43,925 nucleotides of DNA from Vulcanimicrobiota bacterium (GTDB lineage Bacteria > Vulcanimicrobiota > Vulcanimicrobiia > Vulcanimicrobiales > Vulcanimicrobiaceae). The translations under genes were made by a program, and so were the position numbers. Positions 1-7,086 of this stretch are shown piece after piece (positions within the stretch are counted from its first letter, which is position 1; each line of letters starts with the position of its first letter). Location of the stretch: assembly GCA_019235995.1 (NCBI GenBank), contig JAFAJV010000121.1, positions 1-43,925 of the forward strand. The letters are read 5' to 3'. The notes beneath the pieces were generated by a model, which was not told the origin of the DNA, did not search any database, and saw nothing but the letters and a program-made list of their open reading frames with translations.

Positions 1-1
1 T

Positions 2-79
2 GCAAAGGACCAAGAAGTGCCCGAGTATGATGAGAAGCTCGGCGACGAAGACGATCGAAAGGAGCGCGACGACGATTAA
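2..79 (+). CDS. Possible C-terminal tail of a gene entering from the left
   Basis: An open frame enters the window and ends in TAA at 77-79. It would encode a very acidic, charged tail rich in Asp and Glu (ending ERDDD). The opposite strand over the same bases reads as a hydrophobic stretch, which is the expected complement of Asp/Glu codons and has no start codon, so the plus-strand reading is preferred. The fragment is too short to identify and may not be a gene. Confidence 0.25.
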   Translation, partial: AKDQEVPEYDEKLGDEDDRKERDDD

Positions 80-109
80 CGCGCGGTAGACGCGTCCGCT
101 ACGTTCGGT

Positions 110-622
110 TCAAAAGACGAGGACGCCGTCCCATGTGTCCTCGTAACGGTCGCCCTTCAAAGTGAACGACCAGGCTCCGGTACCCGTCGCACTTTCAAAT
201 CTGCCCGTGCCGTGAACCACCGTGAATCTCCAGCGGTTCTTAGTGCTCGACATGTACATCTGGATAGAATCGTCCGGATGCGCGTCGCTGGTCAGAATGA
301 ACATGCCGTGGTCGGGTTCGCAGCGAAAACCAGGAGTCTTATGCAACGTTCCATGCTCGTCGCTCTGAAGCAGGAATGCGGCGTGACCGGAGCCGTGAAA
401 TTTGACCTCTTCAGGACGTCTATTCAGGTAGCAGTCGCCTTCGCGAGTTATGCCACCCGCGAAACTAGCGCTGAATGTACCCCCGGCCGTGGGCTGGCGC
501 AGTTGCTGCACGCCAATGAACGGGACCGCCTGCGTTCCGGCCTGTGGGGTCGGCGACCCACCGCATCCGCCAAGTAGGGTTGCGATGGTTATGCCTACAG
601 CGAAGTGACTGAAAATCTTCAT
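110..622 (-). CDS. Predicted lipoprotein, paralogue 1 of 3
   Basis: This 170-residue protein has a lipoprotein signal peptide with lipobox LLGGC (Cys20), followed by a Ser/Pro/Thr linker (GGSPTPQ). It should be an exported, lipid-anchored protein. The C-terminal third carries the signature GTGRF-x3-TGTG-x-WSFT, then YEDTW-x-G-x-L-x-F at the very end, shared with the next two genes. GxGRFxxATGxG motifs occur in small beta-barrel secreted proteins such as allene-oxide-cyclase-like folds, but that fold assignment is only a guess. Function is unknown. The signal peptide and linker are very close to those of the 645-1181 gene, pointing to recent duplication. Codon use is less GC-rich than genes to the right of 5,000. 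Confidence 0.8.
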   Translation of the reverse strand: MKIFSHFAVGITIATLLGGCGGSPTPQAGTQAVPFIGVQQLRQPTAGGTFSASFAGGITREGDCYLNRRPEEVKFHGSGHAAFLLQSDEHGTLHKTPGFRCEPDHGMFILTSDAHPDDSIQMYMSSTKNRWRFTVVHGTGRFESATGTGAWSFTLKGDRYEDTWDGVLVF

Positions 623-644
623 GCCCTTTATCCGTGTGCGCGCG

Positions 645-1181
645 TCAAAAGTTAAGCGTGCCCGTCCATGTGTCCTCGTATGTTATTCCCTCTGCGTGGT
701 CCTTTAGAGTAAATGACCACGTTCCAGAACCGGTCGCTTTTGCGAATCTTCCGGTGCCTTTAATCACCGTGTATTTCGCTTTACCGTCCAGCGGAGTTTC
801 CGCATCGAGGTAAATCGCGTCGTGCGGATTCTTCTCGCTTGTCATGATAAAGTAAGGGTACGAGAGGCGGCAATGCCCCGAAGTCTCTAGCGATTCGGCA
901 ATTCCCACTTCGCCGCTCGCCTCCAAGAACGAGGCGTGGCCTTCACCACGAAAATCATTGTATGGGATGAAGCCGAAGTCGGGCACTATGTGGCGACAGC
1001 CATCAGATTTTGAAAACCAGCCCGTGTAATGGGCGCTGAATTCACCGCCGTCCGCATGCTGCAGTCGCGAGCCCTTGGGGGCTAGCGCCTGCGTTCCGGT
1101 TTGTGGGGTCGGCGACCCACCGCATCCGACAAGTAGTGCTGTGACGGTTACGCTCAAAACGTATTGCCTAAAATTCTTCAT
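645..1181 (-). CDS. Predicted lipoprotein, paralogue 2 of 3
   Basis: This 178-residue protein has lipobox LLVGC (Cys20) and the same GGSPTPQ-x-GTQA linker as the gene at 110-622. It ends with the shared signature GTGRF-x-KATGSGTWSFT and YEDTW-x-G-x-L-x-F. The ATG at 1181 is preceded by a GGAGGAG ribosome binding site about 11 nt upstream. The middle of the protein is divergent from its neighbour except for scattered Cys and Gly, so the three genes look like a small family under diversification. Function is unknown; it is expected on the periplasmic or outer side of a membrane. A partial tRNA copy lies just upstream at 1217-1238, between this gene and the third paralogue. Confidence 0.8.
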   Translation of the reverse strand: MKNFRQYVLSVTVTALLVGCGGSPTPQTGTQALAPKGSRLQHADGGEFSAHYTGWFSKSDGCRHIVPDFGFIPYNDFRGEGHASFLEASGEVGIAESLETSGHCRLSYPYFIMTSEKNPHDAIYLDAETPLDGKAKYTVIKGTGRFAKATGSGTWSFTLKDHAEGITYEDTWTGTLNF

Positions 1182-1216
1182 TGGCCCGTGCTCCTCCAGA
1201 GCCCGATTTCAAACTT

Positions 1217-1238
1217 GGGCGGGACATGGATTGAACAT
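1217..1238 (-). repeat. Partial copy of the tRNA-Val(GAC) 3' end (candidate attachment site)
   Basis: Twenty-one of 22 bases match 5000-5021, the 3' acceptor strand and T-arm of the intact tRNA-Val at 4996-5070, in the same orientation. The single mismatch is at 1223. Homology stops at the end of the acceptor stem: the CCA and the anticodon arm are not present here. Two same-orientation copies of a tRNA 3' end flanking a stretch of accessory genes is the usual outcome of integrase-mediated insertion into a tRNA. No integrase gene remains between the copies. Confidence 0.7.
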
Positions 1239-1256
1239 TGATCGTTGCAGCAGTCG

Positions 1257-1787
1257 TCAAAATGTGAGCGTACCCGACCAGGCGTCGGTATACTGACTGC
1301 TGCCGATGCACGTGAAGGTGACCGTGCCGGAACCGGTCGCGTGAACGAACTTGCCCGCCCCAGAAACCACCCCATAGTTGACCGAGTGACATGGCGGTCC
1401 GATTAATCTGAACGTGACCCAATTGCCAGGATGCCCTCTACTCCGGAGCATTGCTCCACCGATAAACAAACAGCCTTTGAGGATTGGATGTCCTTGCATT
1501 GATCCGGTTTCGACGCCTCTGTTTAGGAATTTCGCCGATCCACTACCACTGAAGTTGAAGGAGCCATACTTATTCTTGGTGCATCCGACGAGGCTGTCGT
1601 CCCCGGCATAACTGCCGCTGAAGACTCCGCCTCGCGGCAGGCGGACAGCTGAGTTTGCAGTAGTAGCCTGCTGTCTTCCCGTCAAGTGTTCAAAAGGTTG
1701 CGGAGCACTCGACTGTCCGCTGCACGAAGCGAGAATCGCGCTGGTTAGGACCATCGCGCCATAATACACAAACCGAGAACCTGTCAT
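1257..1787 (-). CDS. Predicted lipoprotein, paralogue 3 of 3
   Basis: This 176-residue protein has lipobox ILASC (Cys22) and a polar linker. The body keeps the family pattern: G-V-FSGSYAG near the start of the mature domain, GAGKF-x2-ATGSGTVTFT, and a terminal YTDAW-x-G-x-L-x-F. The N-terminal signal and linker differ from the two paralogues downstream, so this is the more diverged member. An AAAGGGA ribosome binding site lies about 9 nt before ATG 1787. It lies inside the interval bounded by the tRNA-Val direct repeat, whereas its two relatives lie outside it. Function is unknown. Confidence 0.8.
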   Translation of the reverse strand: MTGSRFVYYGAMVLTSAILASCSGQSSAPQPFEHLTGRQQATTANSAVRLPRGGVFSGSYAGDDSLVGCTKNKYGSFNFSGSGSAKFLNRGVETGSMQGHPILKGCLFIGGAMLRSRGHPGNWVTFRLIGPPCHSVNYGVVSGAGKFVHATGSGTVTFTCIGSSQYTDAWSGTLTF

Positions 1788-1882
1788 GGGAAGCCATCCC
1801 TTTCTGCGCTAGAACGAGCGTGCTCCAAGCATGGAGGTGGCTGGAGGCGACGGCCGCCTGCCAGGCCCTCAGCGTAGCACTT

Positions 1883-1902
1883 TTAAGGGCTAGCGTCCTT
1901 AA
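1883..1902. repeat. Small inverted repeat (TTAAGG/CCTTAA)
   Basis: A perfect 6-bp inverted repeat with an 8-nt loop lies upstream of the lipoprotein gene at 1257-1787 and before the GloVer remnant. It has no U-run of terminator length. It may be an operator or simply a relic. Confidence 0.3.
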
Positions 1903-1984
1903 TGCATAGCCTGCGTTTTGCCCATAGCGTACGGTCTCCACCTGTGCAAGACATCGGACTTGTCTCCATTCGTCGCCTGAGCTG

Positions 1985-2242
1985 ATAGACTTCAACGGTA
2001 CGCTATACGGCACTACTCTTTTGGGCGGGACGAAGTACCGTGGAATAGTCTTTAGCTTGACAATGTCGGAAAAGGAGACTGTGCTTCATAACTTTCAAGG
2101 TGCACCTGACGGCATGTATCCGACTGGCGGGCTAGTCGCGATAGGTAACACACTCTACGGCACTACAAGCGAGGGCGGAAGTGGGCCGTGTTATGGTCAC
2201 CCGCCCCTGGGGTGCGGGACGATCTACAAGTTCACGCCCTAA
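1985..2242 (+). pseudogene. Remnant of a GloVer-type tandem-repeat secreted protein
   Basis: The frame reads DFNGTLYGTT, then GG-x4-G-x-VFSLT, ETVLHNF, DGMYPTGGL, GNTLYGTTSEGG and finally GTIYKFTP before TAA. These are the repeat units of the 'choice-of-anchor tandem repeat GloVer' proteins, which normally carry many copies behind a signal peptide. Only about one and a half repeats are left. The repeat sequence continues upstream of the first usable start (TTG 2021), with no signal peptide and a stop at 1925-1927. This is therefore best read as the surviving C-terminal end of a truncated gene, not a functional 73-codon gene. It lies inside the tRNA-bounded island. Confidence 0.65.
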
Positions 2243-2534
2243 TGCGTCTTGCGGCAGAGTTGCTGGGCATTCCGATCGCGCGGAAACGACACCGCGCACG
2301 GGCAGCCTGAGCCGCACAGCGCGCCACGGTGCCGGGAAAATCTAACTTACGGCTGAGCGACGTGGGGGCGAATTCGCAATGGCACTTAAAAGCGCGTTAA
2401 TGGTCGCGCCCGGCCGAACAAACTGATTCCTGTCAGATGCTATCGCGATACGAGCGAGGGGACTCTTGTCTGCAAGGAGGCGCTCGTCGGCATCAGAACC
2501 CGCTGCATCCCCTTGCCGCGTGGAGGTGTACCGT
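2243..2534. other. Intergenic stretch with no recognised gene
   Basis: Between the GloVer remnant and the first HAF-like gene I see no coding frame with both a plausible ribosome binding site and protein-like composition. A 22-codon frame starting at ATG 2242 is present but unsupported. The promoter of the downstream gene should lie here; I could not place it with confidence. Confidence 0.4.
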
Positions 2535-3713
2535 ATGCGTCCTTCGCGATCAGTAACAAGCCGCACAAGGCTCATCATTTTTATCTTCATGATCACAGCA
2601 TTAGGCGTAAGCGTCGGCTCTGGCGCTGCCGTCAATGCACACCCGGGCTCCTTCCTAAAATCAGGAACTACGAGTGTCTGCGGAACCACAGCCATCATCT
2701 GCTACAACATCGAGACGGTCGACTATAAACCTGGTGAAAATAACTTTATAACGGGCATCAATAACTTTGACAATATCGTAGGTGCGTACTCCGCTGCTAC
2801 CACTGCCAATGCCATCTACCACAGCTTCGAGGCCGCTCCGAACCCGGTGCCAACCGCTTATACGGGACAGTTCGTCAATGAGAAGAGTCCGTATAAGAGC
2901 ACCTTTCTCCAAGGGTTGGATAATAATCAAAAACTTTCGAATTCGTATGTAGTCGGCTATGCTGGAAACATCTGCGGAAGTTGCAGCACGGTAGGAGTCA
3001 TCTACAATAACAAAAACAACACCTGGACGACCGTTCAAGACAACAACAACGGCTCATGCCCTGTCGATACCCAGGTACTCGCAATGACGAATCCGCAACA
3101 GGGAGTCGGCTTTTATTTAAAACCGAATTCGCTCGGCAAATGCGAACAGCAGGCTTTTGAATTTTATCCCAAAAGCGGCGGCACCAGCGATCAGTTCACG
3201 TACGTTGACTTTAACCCTCCGCCGGCAACCAGCGGTGCGACAGTTGTCTCATCAACGGCAAACGGCGTCAATGAACTAGGAGATGTCGTTGGAACCGAGA
3301 CATACGGGTCACCCCATCGTCAGGCGGCGTGGGTGTACTCCGAACTCACGTACTACACGTTTAAAAACGGTAGCTACAACACGTTCGGTCGGGGGATCGA
3401 CTTCAACGATAGAGTGGTTGGTGACTACATTGACGGCGTCGGTGCCACCCATGGATTCTTAGTTGAGAATCCCGTGAGCCCGACGTTTATTACGATCGAT
3501 TATCCGGTCACTCCGGCATACACGGTCATAAATTCGATCAGCCTGGAAACAGACAAAAAAGACGGCTTTCTCTCGGCGATTTCGGGATGGTATTTCGAGG
3601 GTGGCCTGTACCATGGATTCGTTGGGACATGCAACACCACGTGCCCCAACGTGGGGAAAACCATACCGGGGCTTGAGAGTCACTTGAAAACGGTCAGACC
3701 ACCAAGTCGCTAA
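2535..3713 (+). CDS. Secreted HAF-like repeat protein 1
   Basis: The start at ATG 2535 is chosen because GGAGGTG lies 7 nt upstream and the protein then begins with a classical signal peptide (basic RPSRS, then a hydrophobic helix LIIFIFMITALGV). The open frame extends further upstream but without these features. The 392-residue product carries degenerate repeats typical of the 'extracellular repeat, HAF' group: ITGINNFDNIVGAY, NGVNELGDVVGTE, GIDFNDRVVGDY with ATHGFL, and SGWYFEGGLYHGF. Such proteins are exported, predicted beta-propeller-like and of unknown function. Several Cys pairs (CGSC, CNTTC) could form disulfides. Codon use is rich in A/T-ending codons, unlike the chromosome beyond 5,000. 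It is followed in tandem by a paralogue. Confidence 0.75.
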   Translation: MRPSRSVTSRTRLIIFIFMITALGVSVGSGAAVNAHPGSFLKSGTTSVCGTTAIICYNIETVDYKPGENNFITGINNFDNIVGAYSAATTANAIYHSFEAAPNPVPTAYTGQFVNEKSPYKSTFLQGLDNNQKLSNSYVVGYAGNICGSCSTVGVIYNNKNNTWTTVQDNNNGSCPVDTQVLAMTNPQQGVGFYLKPNSLGKCEQQAFEFYPKSGGTSDQFTYVDFNPPPATSGATVVSSTANGVNELGDVVGTETYGSPHRQAAWVYSELTYYTFKNGSYNTFGRGIDFNDRVVGDYIDGVGATHGFLVENPVSPTFITIDYPVTPAYTVINSISLETDKKDGFLSAISGWYFEGGLYHGFVGTCNTTCPNVGKTIPGLESHLKTVRPPSR

Positions 3714-3777
3714 AAGTCACGCATCAAGTGACTACCGTCACACCCTGCCGTTCCCAGTGCTAAGTAAGGAGACTGTC

Positions 3778-4887
3778 ATGCAAAAGTGGACCACGTCCCA
3801 TCGCGGCCTTTCGATCGTCTCTCTTGCCGTGACTTTGGCCGCTCTTGGCGGTTGTTCCAGCTCTTCGGTCGGACCGCTCGCGAAAAACCCGGGGGCCAGC
3901 ATCGCCCGACCGAGTTGGACTTCGGGCGGTTACACTCTGACTACGGTCTACGATACCGCTGGAGCTAACAATGAGATAACCGGCATAAATACCAACGGTA
4001 CAATCGTAGGTAATTACGCCAGCTCTACAACTAGCGATGCCTCCTGGACTAGTTACACGTCCACCTCTCCGTATCAATCCTTTACCGTTGACACATATTC
4101 CGCCGTTAACGGGGGTGCTGGGGGTGGGACGTATCTGTCCTCTATCAGCAATGATTCGAAAATCAAGGTGGGCACTGTCTACTATCCTGCGGGGGAGAAC
4201 TATAACTGGGGCGCTGTGGAAAACGGGGGACTTTGGAGCCTGACTTCGAGGGTGGGAGATTCGAGCGATTGTCCGGTGCCGACACACGAGTTGCTCGGCT
4301 ACGACGACAACAGCGGCACCCAGGTTGCCGTTGGGTTTTATGCCAGCGGGACAAGCTGTGTGATTAAACCGTATCTAGTTAGACCGGGCAACATTGTTGA
4401 CCTCACGCGGTTTAAAGGTGGTGTTATCCCCTCTAATTTTATCAATACCTCGGCGACGGGGATTGATTACGGTGACAATATCGTAGGCAGCACACAGTTC
4501 ACGAGCAGCGGCACAAAAACGAAACCGCCCGCTGGATGGTTACAATTGCAAAGCACAACGACCAAGCCAAATACCCTCCAGCCATATTGGTGTTGCAATA
4601 CTACTAGTAAGGTTGGCTATCCGACCTACTTCAACGGGATTGCGCTAGTGAAGTCCGCGGACGAGATCGTGGGATCGTACAAAAATGGAACGGTAACACA
4701 CGGCTTCGTCTGGGTCGTGGGTAGTCCCACGTGGACCACAGTTGACGCTCCACCTGGTGCGGATCTCACGGTGGTCAATGGAGTTAGTCGGGACGGCAAG
4801 ATATGTGGATGGTACCATGAAATCCAGACGGGCCACTTGTATGGCTTCGTCGGGACTCCCACCACTGGATTGAGGAAACGTCACTAG
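3778..4887 (+). CDS. HAF-like repeat lipoprotein 2
   Basis: ATG 3778 follows a strong AAGGAG (3766-3771) and gives a lipoprotein signal with lipobox LAALGGC (Cys26) and a Ser-rich linker; the open frame's earlier start at 3757 would overlap that ribosome binding site. The 369-residue product is a diverged paralogue of the gene at 2535-3713. It has the same order of repeats: NEITGINTNGTIVGNY, TGIDYGDNIVGS, an ADEIVGSYKNG-x-VTHGFVWV unit, and a final GKICGWYHE with LYGFVG. It should be anchored to a membrane facing outward. The pair probably arose by tandem duplication, one copy keeping a cleavable secretion signal and the other a lipid anchor. Function is unknown. Confidence 0.75.
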   Translation: MQKWTTSHRGLSIVSLAVTLAALGGCSSSSVGPLAKNPGASIARPSWTSGGYTLTTVYDTAGANNEITGINTNGTIVGNYASSTTSDASWTSYTSTSPYQSFTVDTYSAVNGGAGGGTYLSSISNDSKIKVGTVYYPAGENYNWGAVENGGLWSLTSRVGDSSDCPVPTHELLGYDDNSGTQVAVGFYASGTSCVIKPYLVRPGNIVDLTRFKGGVIPSNFINTSATGIDYGDNIVGSTQFTSSGTKTKPPAGWLQLQSTTTKPNTLQPYWCCNTTSKVGYPTYFNGIALVKSADEIVGSYKNGTVTHGFVWVVGSPTWTTVDAPPGADLTVVNGVSRDGKICGWYHEIQTGHLYGFVGTPTTGLRKRH

Positions 4888-4890
4888 AGT

Positions 4891-4910
4891 GAGCCTCAAA
4901 ATGTTGGCTC
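4891..4910 (+). terminator. Possible weak terminator after the HAF-like genes
   Basis: A perfect 5-bp stem (GAGCC/GGCTC) with a 10-nt A/T-rich loop lies just after the stop of the gene at 3778-4887. There is no U-run after it, so this is a weak call. Confidence 0.25.
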
Positions 4911-4995
4911 GTCGCGCCACAGGTCAAATTATGATTCGAAGGTCAGGGACGGGGCGGTCTATTTTGGCGATCTCGTCCGGCAGAATCGCGCTTTA

Positions 4996-5070
4996 TGGTG
5001 GGCGGTACATGGATTGAACATGTGACCTCTTCCGTGTCAAGGAAGCGCTCTCCCACTGAGCTAACCGCCC
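4996..5070 (-). tRNA. tRNA-Val (GAC)
   Basis: The minus strand folds into a complete cloverleaf: 7-bp acceptor stem GGGCGGT/ACCGCCC, D-arm with GCTC/GAGC, anticodon stem CTTCC/GGAAG around loop TTGACAC (anticodon GAC), and a T-arm with a TTCAATC loop. Discriminator A and an encoded CCA occupy 4996-4999. The gene is intact and its 3' end faces the low-GC region to the left. A 22-nt near-copy of its 3' end is found at 1217-1238, suggesting it served as an integration site. Confidence 0.95.
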
Positions 5071-5595: not shown

Positions 5596-7086
5596 TCAGG
5601 GGAGGGCGTCGGCGATGCCGGTATCGGCGTCCTTCCATTCAACTTGGAAACGCGAACGCACCGCAACCGCCTGCGCGGCTTGGCCCTGCGCCGAAAGCGC
5701 CGCGGCCAATCCGTACAGCGCGCGGGGATCGTTCGGATAACGCGCGAGCGCTTCGCTGAAGGCCGCCACCGCATGCGCATACCCGCCATATCGTAAGTAG
5801 ATCCCGCCTAGGACCTCGTCGGCCGGAAAGAGCGGGATCAGCTCCTCGGTGAAATTCGCGCGCTGATCGTCGCGCGCGCGCTCTATCCAGCGGGTGGCGT
5901 CCCCGGGCGTCCCGTCCGCCGTGGCCGCCTCCGCGAGGAAGAGCTGCGCCATGTAGCCGTGCGTCAAGTCTTCGCCCGCGACGCGCTTAGCGAGCGCGCG
6001 CGCCTCGGCCGCGTGGCCCAAGCGCAGCGCCGCCCAGCCGCGCACGCTTTCGCCGGCGAACGCGCCAGGATCAGCGGCATAGGCGTCGGCGTATCGGCCG
6101 AATCGAAGCGCCGTTATCGCATCGAAGTCTTGATCGAAAACTCCCTCCATTCGCAGCGCCCAGACCCGTGCGACCGCGTAGTTTCCAAGCATCATCGCGG
6201 CCGAGTAGCCGACGCCGACGTCGTGTTTGGCGTAGCGCCGGACGTGCTCGCCATCCAGTCCGCCGGGAAGCCGCTCGAGCAGTTCGAAGGCGCGGTCGCT
6301 CGACGCTACCGCGGCGGCATAGTCTCCCGTCTCGATCCAGTAGTGGGCCGGCATGTGCGCGAGATGCTCGGCCTCGGGCGGGAATGCGGCGGCGTCGAGC
6401 CGCTGCGCGCACTGCCGCGCGGGTCGTCGGTCGGGCGCGAGATCGTAGAGGTGGATGCAGAGGTGGTTAGCCATCGCGCTCTTCGGGTCGTCGCGCAAGA
6501 TCCGCGTGACCAGCTCGAGCGCCTCGCGCGACTCGACCGCCGCAGGCGCCCCGCCGCTCCACGCAAGCCCGCCGCCTTCGAGCAACGCCTCTGCTGCGAG
6601 CAGCGCGACGTTCTCGTCGCCGGACGCGCGCGCGAACCGCAGCATGCCGTCGCGGTACGCCGCATCGTCGGAACGCCAGTCGGCGAAGCTGCCGCGGTAA
6701 CGGCGGCCCATGAGCACGACGAGCTCCTGGTCGCGCGCCGGCGGCAGCGTGGCGACCGCGGCGGCTTGTCGCACCGCTCGCGCGGCGCGCTCGAAGCGCC
6801 CGGCGGTCATCGGCGTGTTCAAGTCGGGGCCGCTTGCCAGCGCGACGCCCCAGAAGGCCATCGCCAGGCGCGGATCGAGCGCGGCGGCCAGCTCGAACAT
6901 GCGCGCGGCGTCGTCGCCGTCGTAGGCATAATAGAGGAAGAGGCCGCGGTCGATCGCGGCTTGCGCTTGCGGATTGTTCGTCGACACCGGGAGGTGAACC
7001 GAAGTGGCCACCGCGGTCGCGGCAAAGAGAACGACGGCGGCGAGCGTCACGTAGAATATGGTAGGGTAAGATTCGGTTTTGTCCAA
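5596..7086 (-). CDS. TPR-repeat protein with N-terminal membrane anchor
   Basis: This 496-residue protein has an N-terminal hydrophobic segment (residues 10-28, FYVTLAAVVLFAATAVATS) that is a signal peptide or anchor. Several tetratricopeptide-like helical pairs follow (for example GLFLYYAYDGDDAARMFELA, then AMAFWGVALASGPDLN, and near the end YARYPNDPRALYGLAAALS-like segments). Two conserved histidine regions (MANHLCIHLYDL and HLAHMPAHYWIETGDY) are typical of a group of tetratricopeptide proteins annotated only as hypothetical. It probably scaffolds protein contacts in the periplasm. The start is TTG 7086; a GTG at codon 13 would cut into the hydrophobic segment. It is divergent from tRNA-Val(CAC), with 17 nt between. 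Confidence 0.75.
   Translation of the reverse strand: MDKTESYPTIFYVTLAAVVLFAATAVATSVHLPVSTNNPQAQAAIDRGLFLYYAYDGDDAARMFELAAALDPRLAMAFWGVALASGPDLNTPMTAGRFERAARAVRQAAAVATLPPARDQELVVLMGRRYRGSFADWRSDDAAYRDGMLRFARASGDENVALLAAEALLEGGGLAWSGGAPAAVESREALELVTRILRDDPKSAMANHLCIHLYDLAPDRRPARQCAQRLDAAAFPPEAEHLAHMPAHYWIETGDYAAAVASSDRAFELLERLPGGLDGEHVRRYAKHDVGVGYSAAMMLGNYAVARVWALRMEGVFDQDFDAITALRFGRYADAYAADPGAFAGESVRGWAALRLGHAAEARALAKRVAGEDLTHGYMAQLFLAEAATADGTPGDATRWIERARDDQRANFTEELIPLFPADEVLGGIYLRYGGYAHAVAAFSEALARYPNDPRALYGLAAALSAQGQAAQAVAVRSRFQVEWKDADTGIADALP

Follow-up and report, generated by a model that had tools for sequence, protein, structure and literature searches.

A probable eroded island and displaced attachment-site fragment at a tRNA-Val(GAC) gene of a Vulcanimicrobiota bacterium

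Gene content and composition of the locus

The window analyzed here is a stretch of 43,925 nucleotides from a soil-type bacterium of the Vulcanimicrobiota and comprises the entire contig C35 of its genome. Near its left end lies a tRNA-Val(GAC) gene with the anticodon GAC and an encoded CCA, which had been recognized as intact from the sequence and was confirmed by ARAGORN and Rfam. The features on both sides of this gene are as follows:

1..1206, outer part of the variable segment, which goes on past the contig end until about -90 on C113
110..622 (-), lp1, putative secreted lipoprotein
645..1181 (-), lp2, putative lipoprotein, 41% identical to lp1, start 35 bp from the tRNA fragment
1207..1215 (-), AGTTTGAAA, immediately past the fragment; these 9 bases also stand behind the tRNA and one attachment-site copy in the relative G014
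1216..1238 (-), displaced tRNA-Val(GAC) 3' fragment, decayed attachment site, gene positions 50-72, one substitution
1239..4998, tRNA-proximal segment of 3.76 kb (the island as first read from the sequence), no recombinase gene found
1257..1787 (-), lp3, putative lipoprotein, about 31% identical to lp1 and lp2
1988..2242 (+), GloVer-repeat gene remnant, TIGR03803 (E 1.5e-11)
2535..3713 (+), putative secreted protein, 29% similar to the gene that follows and HAF-like in this respect only
3778..4887 (+), putative secreted lipoprotein, weak HAF-repeat match, TIGR02913 (E 0.02)
4996..5070 (-), tRNA-Val(GAC), intact, presumed regenerated target
5596..7086 (-), TPR-like gene, 496 aa, flanks the tRNA on the right and is conserved there within the genus

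The products of lp1, lp2, and lp3 matched no family in Pfam or NCBIfam. Relatives of lp2 are scarce elsewhere, being found in 5 of the other 17 genomes. The only lp2-type gene found in the relative G005 (L065:16730-17272, contig G005:C1) lies on the strand opposite to tRNA-Val(GAC) and comes to within about 40 bp of the tRNA 3' end with its own end, and the lp2 family may either travel with the tRNA-Val(GAC) site or simply be resident there.

The sequence-only reading had also listed a GloVer remnant and two HAF-like secreted proteins in the segment. The GloVer assignment was confirmed by the profile match, and the open frame of the remnant covers 104 aa, compared to 409-556 aa in most other GloVer frames of the genome. 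The HAF assignment is weak for the second secreted protein and could not be upheld for the first, as the HAF profile gave no match to the product of 2535..3713. Both families were rejected as island-specific cargo, since GloVer repeats have 153 matches genome-wide and the HAF-like genes have counterparts in G014 on a different contig; the product of 3778..4887 is 53% identical to its G014 counterpart, which is encoded on contig C1, away from the tRNA.

The earlier observation that no integrase is left in the segment was corroborated, since neither a PF00589 match on contig C35 nor a tblastn match was obtained. Furthermore, no serine recombinase was detected in the segment by tblastn with two examples from the genus. 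Elsewhere in the genome PF00589 has only three matches, of which two are either weak or partial, and the genome yielded no intact partner island.

The GC content drops from about 0.70 to about 0.55 at tRNA-Val(GAC) and then remains low to the contig end. The genes of the segment show a GC3 of 0.59-0.66, compared to 0.83 and 0.80 in the neighbors to the right of the tRNA. As proof of foreign DNA, this A/T-rich composition was rejected. The lipoprotein paralogues elsewhere in the genome have a GC3 of 0.59-0.69 and the G014 counterparts of the HAF-like genes, which lie at a locus without a tRNA, one of 0.57-0.62; another HAF-like gene (contig C130) is the exception with 0.88. As the paralogues outside tRNA loci are mostly equally GC-poor, low GC largely tracks gene families and by itself says little for a foreign origin.

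The tRNA fragment and the extent of the variable segment

The 22 nucleotides at 1217-1238 differ from those at 5000-5021 in a single base and have the same orientation, as had been noted before. With the discriminator base counted in, 1216-1238 matches the 3' end of tRNA-Val(GAC) at 22 of 23 positions. Located about 3.8 kb from the tRNA gene, on its 3' side and on the same strand, the fragment has a placement and orientation that fit a displaced tRNA 3' end. It begins at the base of the T-arm (tRNA position 50) and stops exactly at the discriminator base, with AAG in the copy where the tRNA has CCA. The fragment occupies the gap that separates lp3 (stop at 1257) from lp2 (start at 1181) and overlaps no conserved protein domain.

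A chance similarity or a repeated motif, the latter a caveat raised with the first description of the match, has a negligible probability. When up to 3 mismatches are allowed, neither the window nor the entire genome contains a third match to the 22-nt sequence. Shuffled windows gave 0 comparable matches to the tRNA-Val 3' end, and of 3000 23-mers drawn at random from other parts of the contig the best reached 18/23 within positions 1-4990. The chance expectation for the 23-mer match is about 7e-9. In addition, no near-copies of the 3' ends of the other five tRNAs were found.

Contig C113 of the same genome overlaps window positions 1-310 at 308 of 310 bases and extends leftward, and judged by this overlap it is the probable left neighbor of the window. 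Positions on it beyond the window are given as negative numbers. Between roughly -50 and 5000 the GC content stays near 0.55 and shows no step at 1217, and on C113 it is back to 0.60-0.63 just past window position 1, near which the low-GC tract ends.

The closest relative at the locus is G014, with 80% identity to the right of the tRNA. C113 and C35 together are collinear with G014 from -5448 to -90, short gaps aside, and again from 4999, which is the discriminator base. The synteny thus breaks exactly at tRNA-Val(GAC), and the right edge of the variable segment is the tRNA 3' end (4998/4999). Low GC and lost synteny therefore reach left to about -90 on C113, so that the claim of position 1217 as the boundary of the low-GC, variable DNA had to be given up; this position marks a junction inside a longer variable tract. 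Between the collinear blocks lie 5,088 bp in the genome studied and 12,109 bp in G014. The genes found beyond 1217 are absent from G014 at this locus; their presence there had been named as a counterargument to an insertion.

The sole DNA shared between these two intervals is a 32-bp site at 1207-1238, which matches G014:C3:299767-299798 and 295337-295368 at 31 of 32 bases (E about 1e-7 to 1e-8). Both G014 sequences consist of the tRNA-Val 3' end and the 9 flanking bases AGTTTGAAA, with the extra copy 4.4 kb away. As these 9 additional shared bases lie outside the tRNA, this match argues more strongly than any other observation for the fragment as an attachment-site relic, in agreement with its initial interpretation as the mark of a tRNA-Val island.

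Integration at tRNA-Val(GAC) in relatives

The surroundings of the tRNA are kept in G000, G014, G013, and G005, with a PhaC-like gene and an aldo/keto reductase (AKR) gene on the left and a TPR gene followed by tRNA-Val(CAC), tRNA-Asp, and tRNA-Phe on the right. The interval between the reductase and tRNA-Val(GAC) measures 7.0 kb in G000, 15.0 kb in G014, 10.1 kb in G013, and 8.1 kb in G005, and its content varies. G013 has a normal GC content (0.65) right up to the tRNA and is too distant for an exact join. No exact empty site for the window was found among the genomes of the genus.

Extra tRNA-Val copies which start sharply at tRNA position 28 were identified in G014 (two), G015, and G016. 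The G015 copy comprises positions 28-75 and is located 23.6 kb from the tRNA, and a tyrosine integrase of 407 aa (PF00589, E 7e-21) ends 140 bp from the tRNA. The G015 island (G015:C60:43542-67247, L057:5543 to L058:9347) further encodes a resolvase-type serine recombinase and a phage-type replication initiation protein, and most of its scanned genes have no family match. An integrase 85% identical to that of G015 is found at the same position beside the tRNA in G001. In G016 the position-28 copy is on contig C55, and an integrase-domain match adjoins the tRNA, with a translated frame that has no Pfam match. An integrase domain within 1.3 kb thus occurs at 3 of 12 loci (P about 6e-6 against the genus-wide density). 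In G041, which belongs to another genus, a near-identical extra copy from position 31 lies 9.1 kb from the tRNA, and no integrase was found near it among the proteins scanned. In viral contigs, the attachment core gave one match only, in an unrelated tRNA array, and the relatives of the G015 and G001 integrases were only 22-30% identical.

An origin of the window copy by ordinary duplication or rearrangement of DNA, with no integrase involved, would account for a short and decayed fragment beside the tandem-duplicated lipoprotein genes lp1 and lp2 (82% common DNA over 96 bp) and for the missing integrase. This origin is improbable, however, given that the fragment stops exactly at the discriminator base and is correct in side and strand, and that three relatives have integrase genes next to this site.

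The window fragment (50-72) is shorter than the copies of the relatives (28-72/75). No residue of tRNA positions 28-49 was found in the bases upstream of the copy, where the score was no better than that of shuffles. These positions would either have been deleted or, with a crossover in the T-arm as in the Dehalococcoides ssrA islands (PMC3146451), never have been part of the site. In the latter case the 23-nt fragment would be the complete attachment site of an integrase with a T-loop or T-stem crossover, which is consistent with its start at the T-arm, with the 1836 T-region sites next to 2083 anticodon sites counted by Islander (PMC4383910), and with the 20-bp T-loop repeats left by the ssrA islands (PMC3146451). 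This is a doubtful explanation all the same, because the well-preserved extra copies in the genus and family start at about position 28-32, and because the AAG-type copy of G014, whose outer flank is that of the window copy, has the long core. We rather infer that an anticodon-loop site of about 45-48 nt was trimmed.

The two extra copies of G014 are perfect over 45-48 nt (TCCTTGACACGG... at the start), and one of them is followed by the AAG-type flank and a terminator-like sequence, the other by CCA. They bound two elements in a row, so that the tandem insertions suspected for the window occur in this relative. The elements E1 (4,430 bp) and E2 (3,477 bp) lie at G014:C3:291866-299847 (L055:7867-15848) and possess no integrase gene; PF00589 had no match in either of them. 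Their outer 134 bp are alike (90%), as are the 109 bp at the tRNA end (77%), and the remainder is unrelated, with a cargo that includes pentapeptide-repeat and DUF4760 proteins. The shared ends carry GGTAGCAACG-like repeats, a type which appears to resemble integrase arm sites. Among 99 genomes of the family the outer-arm sequence was found in G014 only, and the same holds for the double arm motif across the genus. From the tRNA outward the order of the flanks is AAG, AAG, CCA, which would be expected from two successive AAG-type insertions into a CCA-type tRNA. A further copy, split and decayed, is located within E1 (L055:12513-12702).

The segment of the window, too, might always have been a short unit bounded by attachment sites and devoid of an integrase, which the integrase of a co-resident island moved in trans (cis-mobilizable), as E1 and E2 appear to be with their similar ends, repeats, unrelated cargo, and lack of PF00589. 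The tRNA-proximal segment is of similar size (3.76 kb) and likewise has no recombinase. Nevertheless, we consider this rather unlikely, since its resemblance to the ends of E1 and E2 stops at the 32-bp site, the genome yielded no intact helper integrase, and loss by deletion is simpler.

Proposed history and similarity to known islands

In tRNA-targeted integration, the tRNA gene is rebuilt with a 3' part that the element brings along, and the old end is displaced (PMC4383910). With good confidence, we interpret the window in these terms as an eroded tRNA-Val(GAC) island in a stack of insertions, with the fragment as a pushed-out 3' end. The 3' end of tRNA-Val(GAC) serves as a recurrent attB for tyrosine-integrase elements in this genus of the Eremiobacterota (Vulcanimicrobiota), each incoming element carrying a copy of the tRNA 3' part. 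At the crossover the tRNA would be restored by the copy of the element and the old 3' end displaced outward, where it marks the far edge. Positions 1216-1238 would be such a displaced end, decayed to 23 bases with one substitution, 1239-4998 the remnant of a later insertion, and 1-1206 and on to about -90 older outer material. The integrase would have been lost, or it was never present and the element moved in trans.

The tRNA ends in CCA, whereas AAG stands at this place in the copy. The segment now next to the tRNA is therefore not of the AAG type seen in G014, and the order of events proposed here is to some degree tentative. The AAG-type fragment at 1216 would be the tRNA end that preceded the arrival of the present CCA-type segment, and an AAG-type element like that of G014 may have been present earlier, with its place left of 1216. 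The stretch at 1-1206 is unlike E1 and E2 past the first 9 bases, and for this reason the order with regard to an AAG-type element is one that we infer.

The window resembles the islands collected by Islander (PMC4383910) in the intact tRNA gene and the displaced 3' fragment on one strand, with the fragment on the 3' side and outside protein domains and a distance between them, 3.8 kb, that falls in the range of 2-200 kb. It differs from these in that no integrase lies between tRNA and fragment and that the fragment is decayed and ends before CCA. Due to the missing integrase the filter of Islander would reject this island. The ssrA islands of Dehalococcoides are likewise found in tandem at one RNA gene with direct repeats of its 3' end, and 15 of them lack an integration module and were read as possible cis-mobilizable elements via accretion (PMC3146451). 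Their target is a tmRNA, however, their recombinase a serine recombinase, and their crossover in the T-loop (PMC3146451), whereas the genus studied here has tRNA-Val(GAC), tyrosine integrases in relatives, and copies mostly from position 28.

A third comparison is offered by CIMEs and tandem accretion among ICESt1-related elements of Streptococcus thermophilus (Pavlovic 2004, in PMC3146451), which, going by the description given there, are bounded by attachment sites, carry no recombination genes, and are stacked with related elements. On that description the model fits E1 and E2 of G014 well. The window segment, E1, and E2 all lie between tRNA copies and lack integrase genes; the attachment site of the window is decayed and may be non-functional. 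In contrast to the CIMEs as described, the genome has no conjugative partner or integrase at the site. Tentatively, a cassette-like platform can be envisaged at tRNA-Val(GAC) of Eremiobacterota, in which small integrase-free units with unrelated cargo and common attachment arms (GGTAGCAACG and the tRNA 3' core) would be arranged in tandem and moved by the integrases of other islands, with E1 and E2 as intact examples and the window as an eroded one.

No published description of the tRNA-Val(GAC) hotspot was found in the literature searched. The analysis maps one integration hotspot in a poorly known bacterial phylum, with a 23-base relic that is verifiable through comparison with relatives. 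For its part, the window shows an ordinary, decayed edge of an island whose kind is well known. The integrase-free pair of G014 is the most interesting side result and a clean testable case of tandem units which share attachment arms and no cargo.

Additional variants of the site were observed in other genomes. In G068:C70 (L120:5876-7582), from another genus, two tRNA-Val 3' copies with 885 bp between them come after an integrase-like stretch, and no intact tRNA was found near them. In G011:C46 (L066:4455-4738) the tRNA is only about 170 bp away from a decayed copy of 40 nt (85%), with a terminator-like stretch and a GGTAGCAACG motif in between, and from these features this may be a mini-element or a remnant. 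Finally, about 10 kb with GloVer and HAF-like genes split the TPR gene from tRNA-Val(GAC) in G006:C107 (L056:8200-18436). This stretch is located on the 5' side of the tRNA, where the relatives have less than 1 kb.
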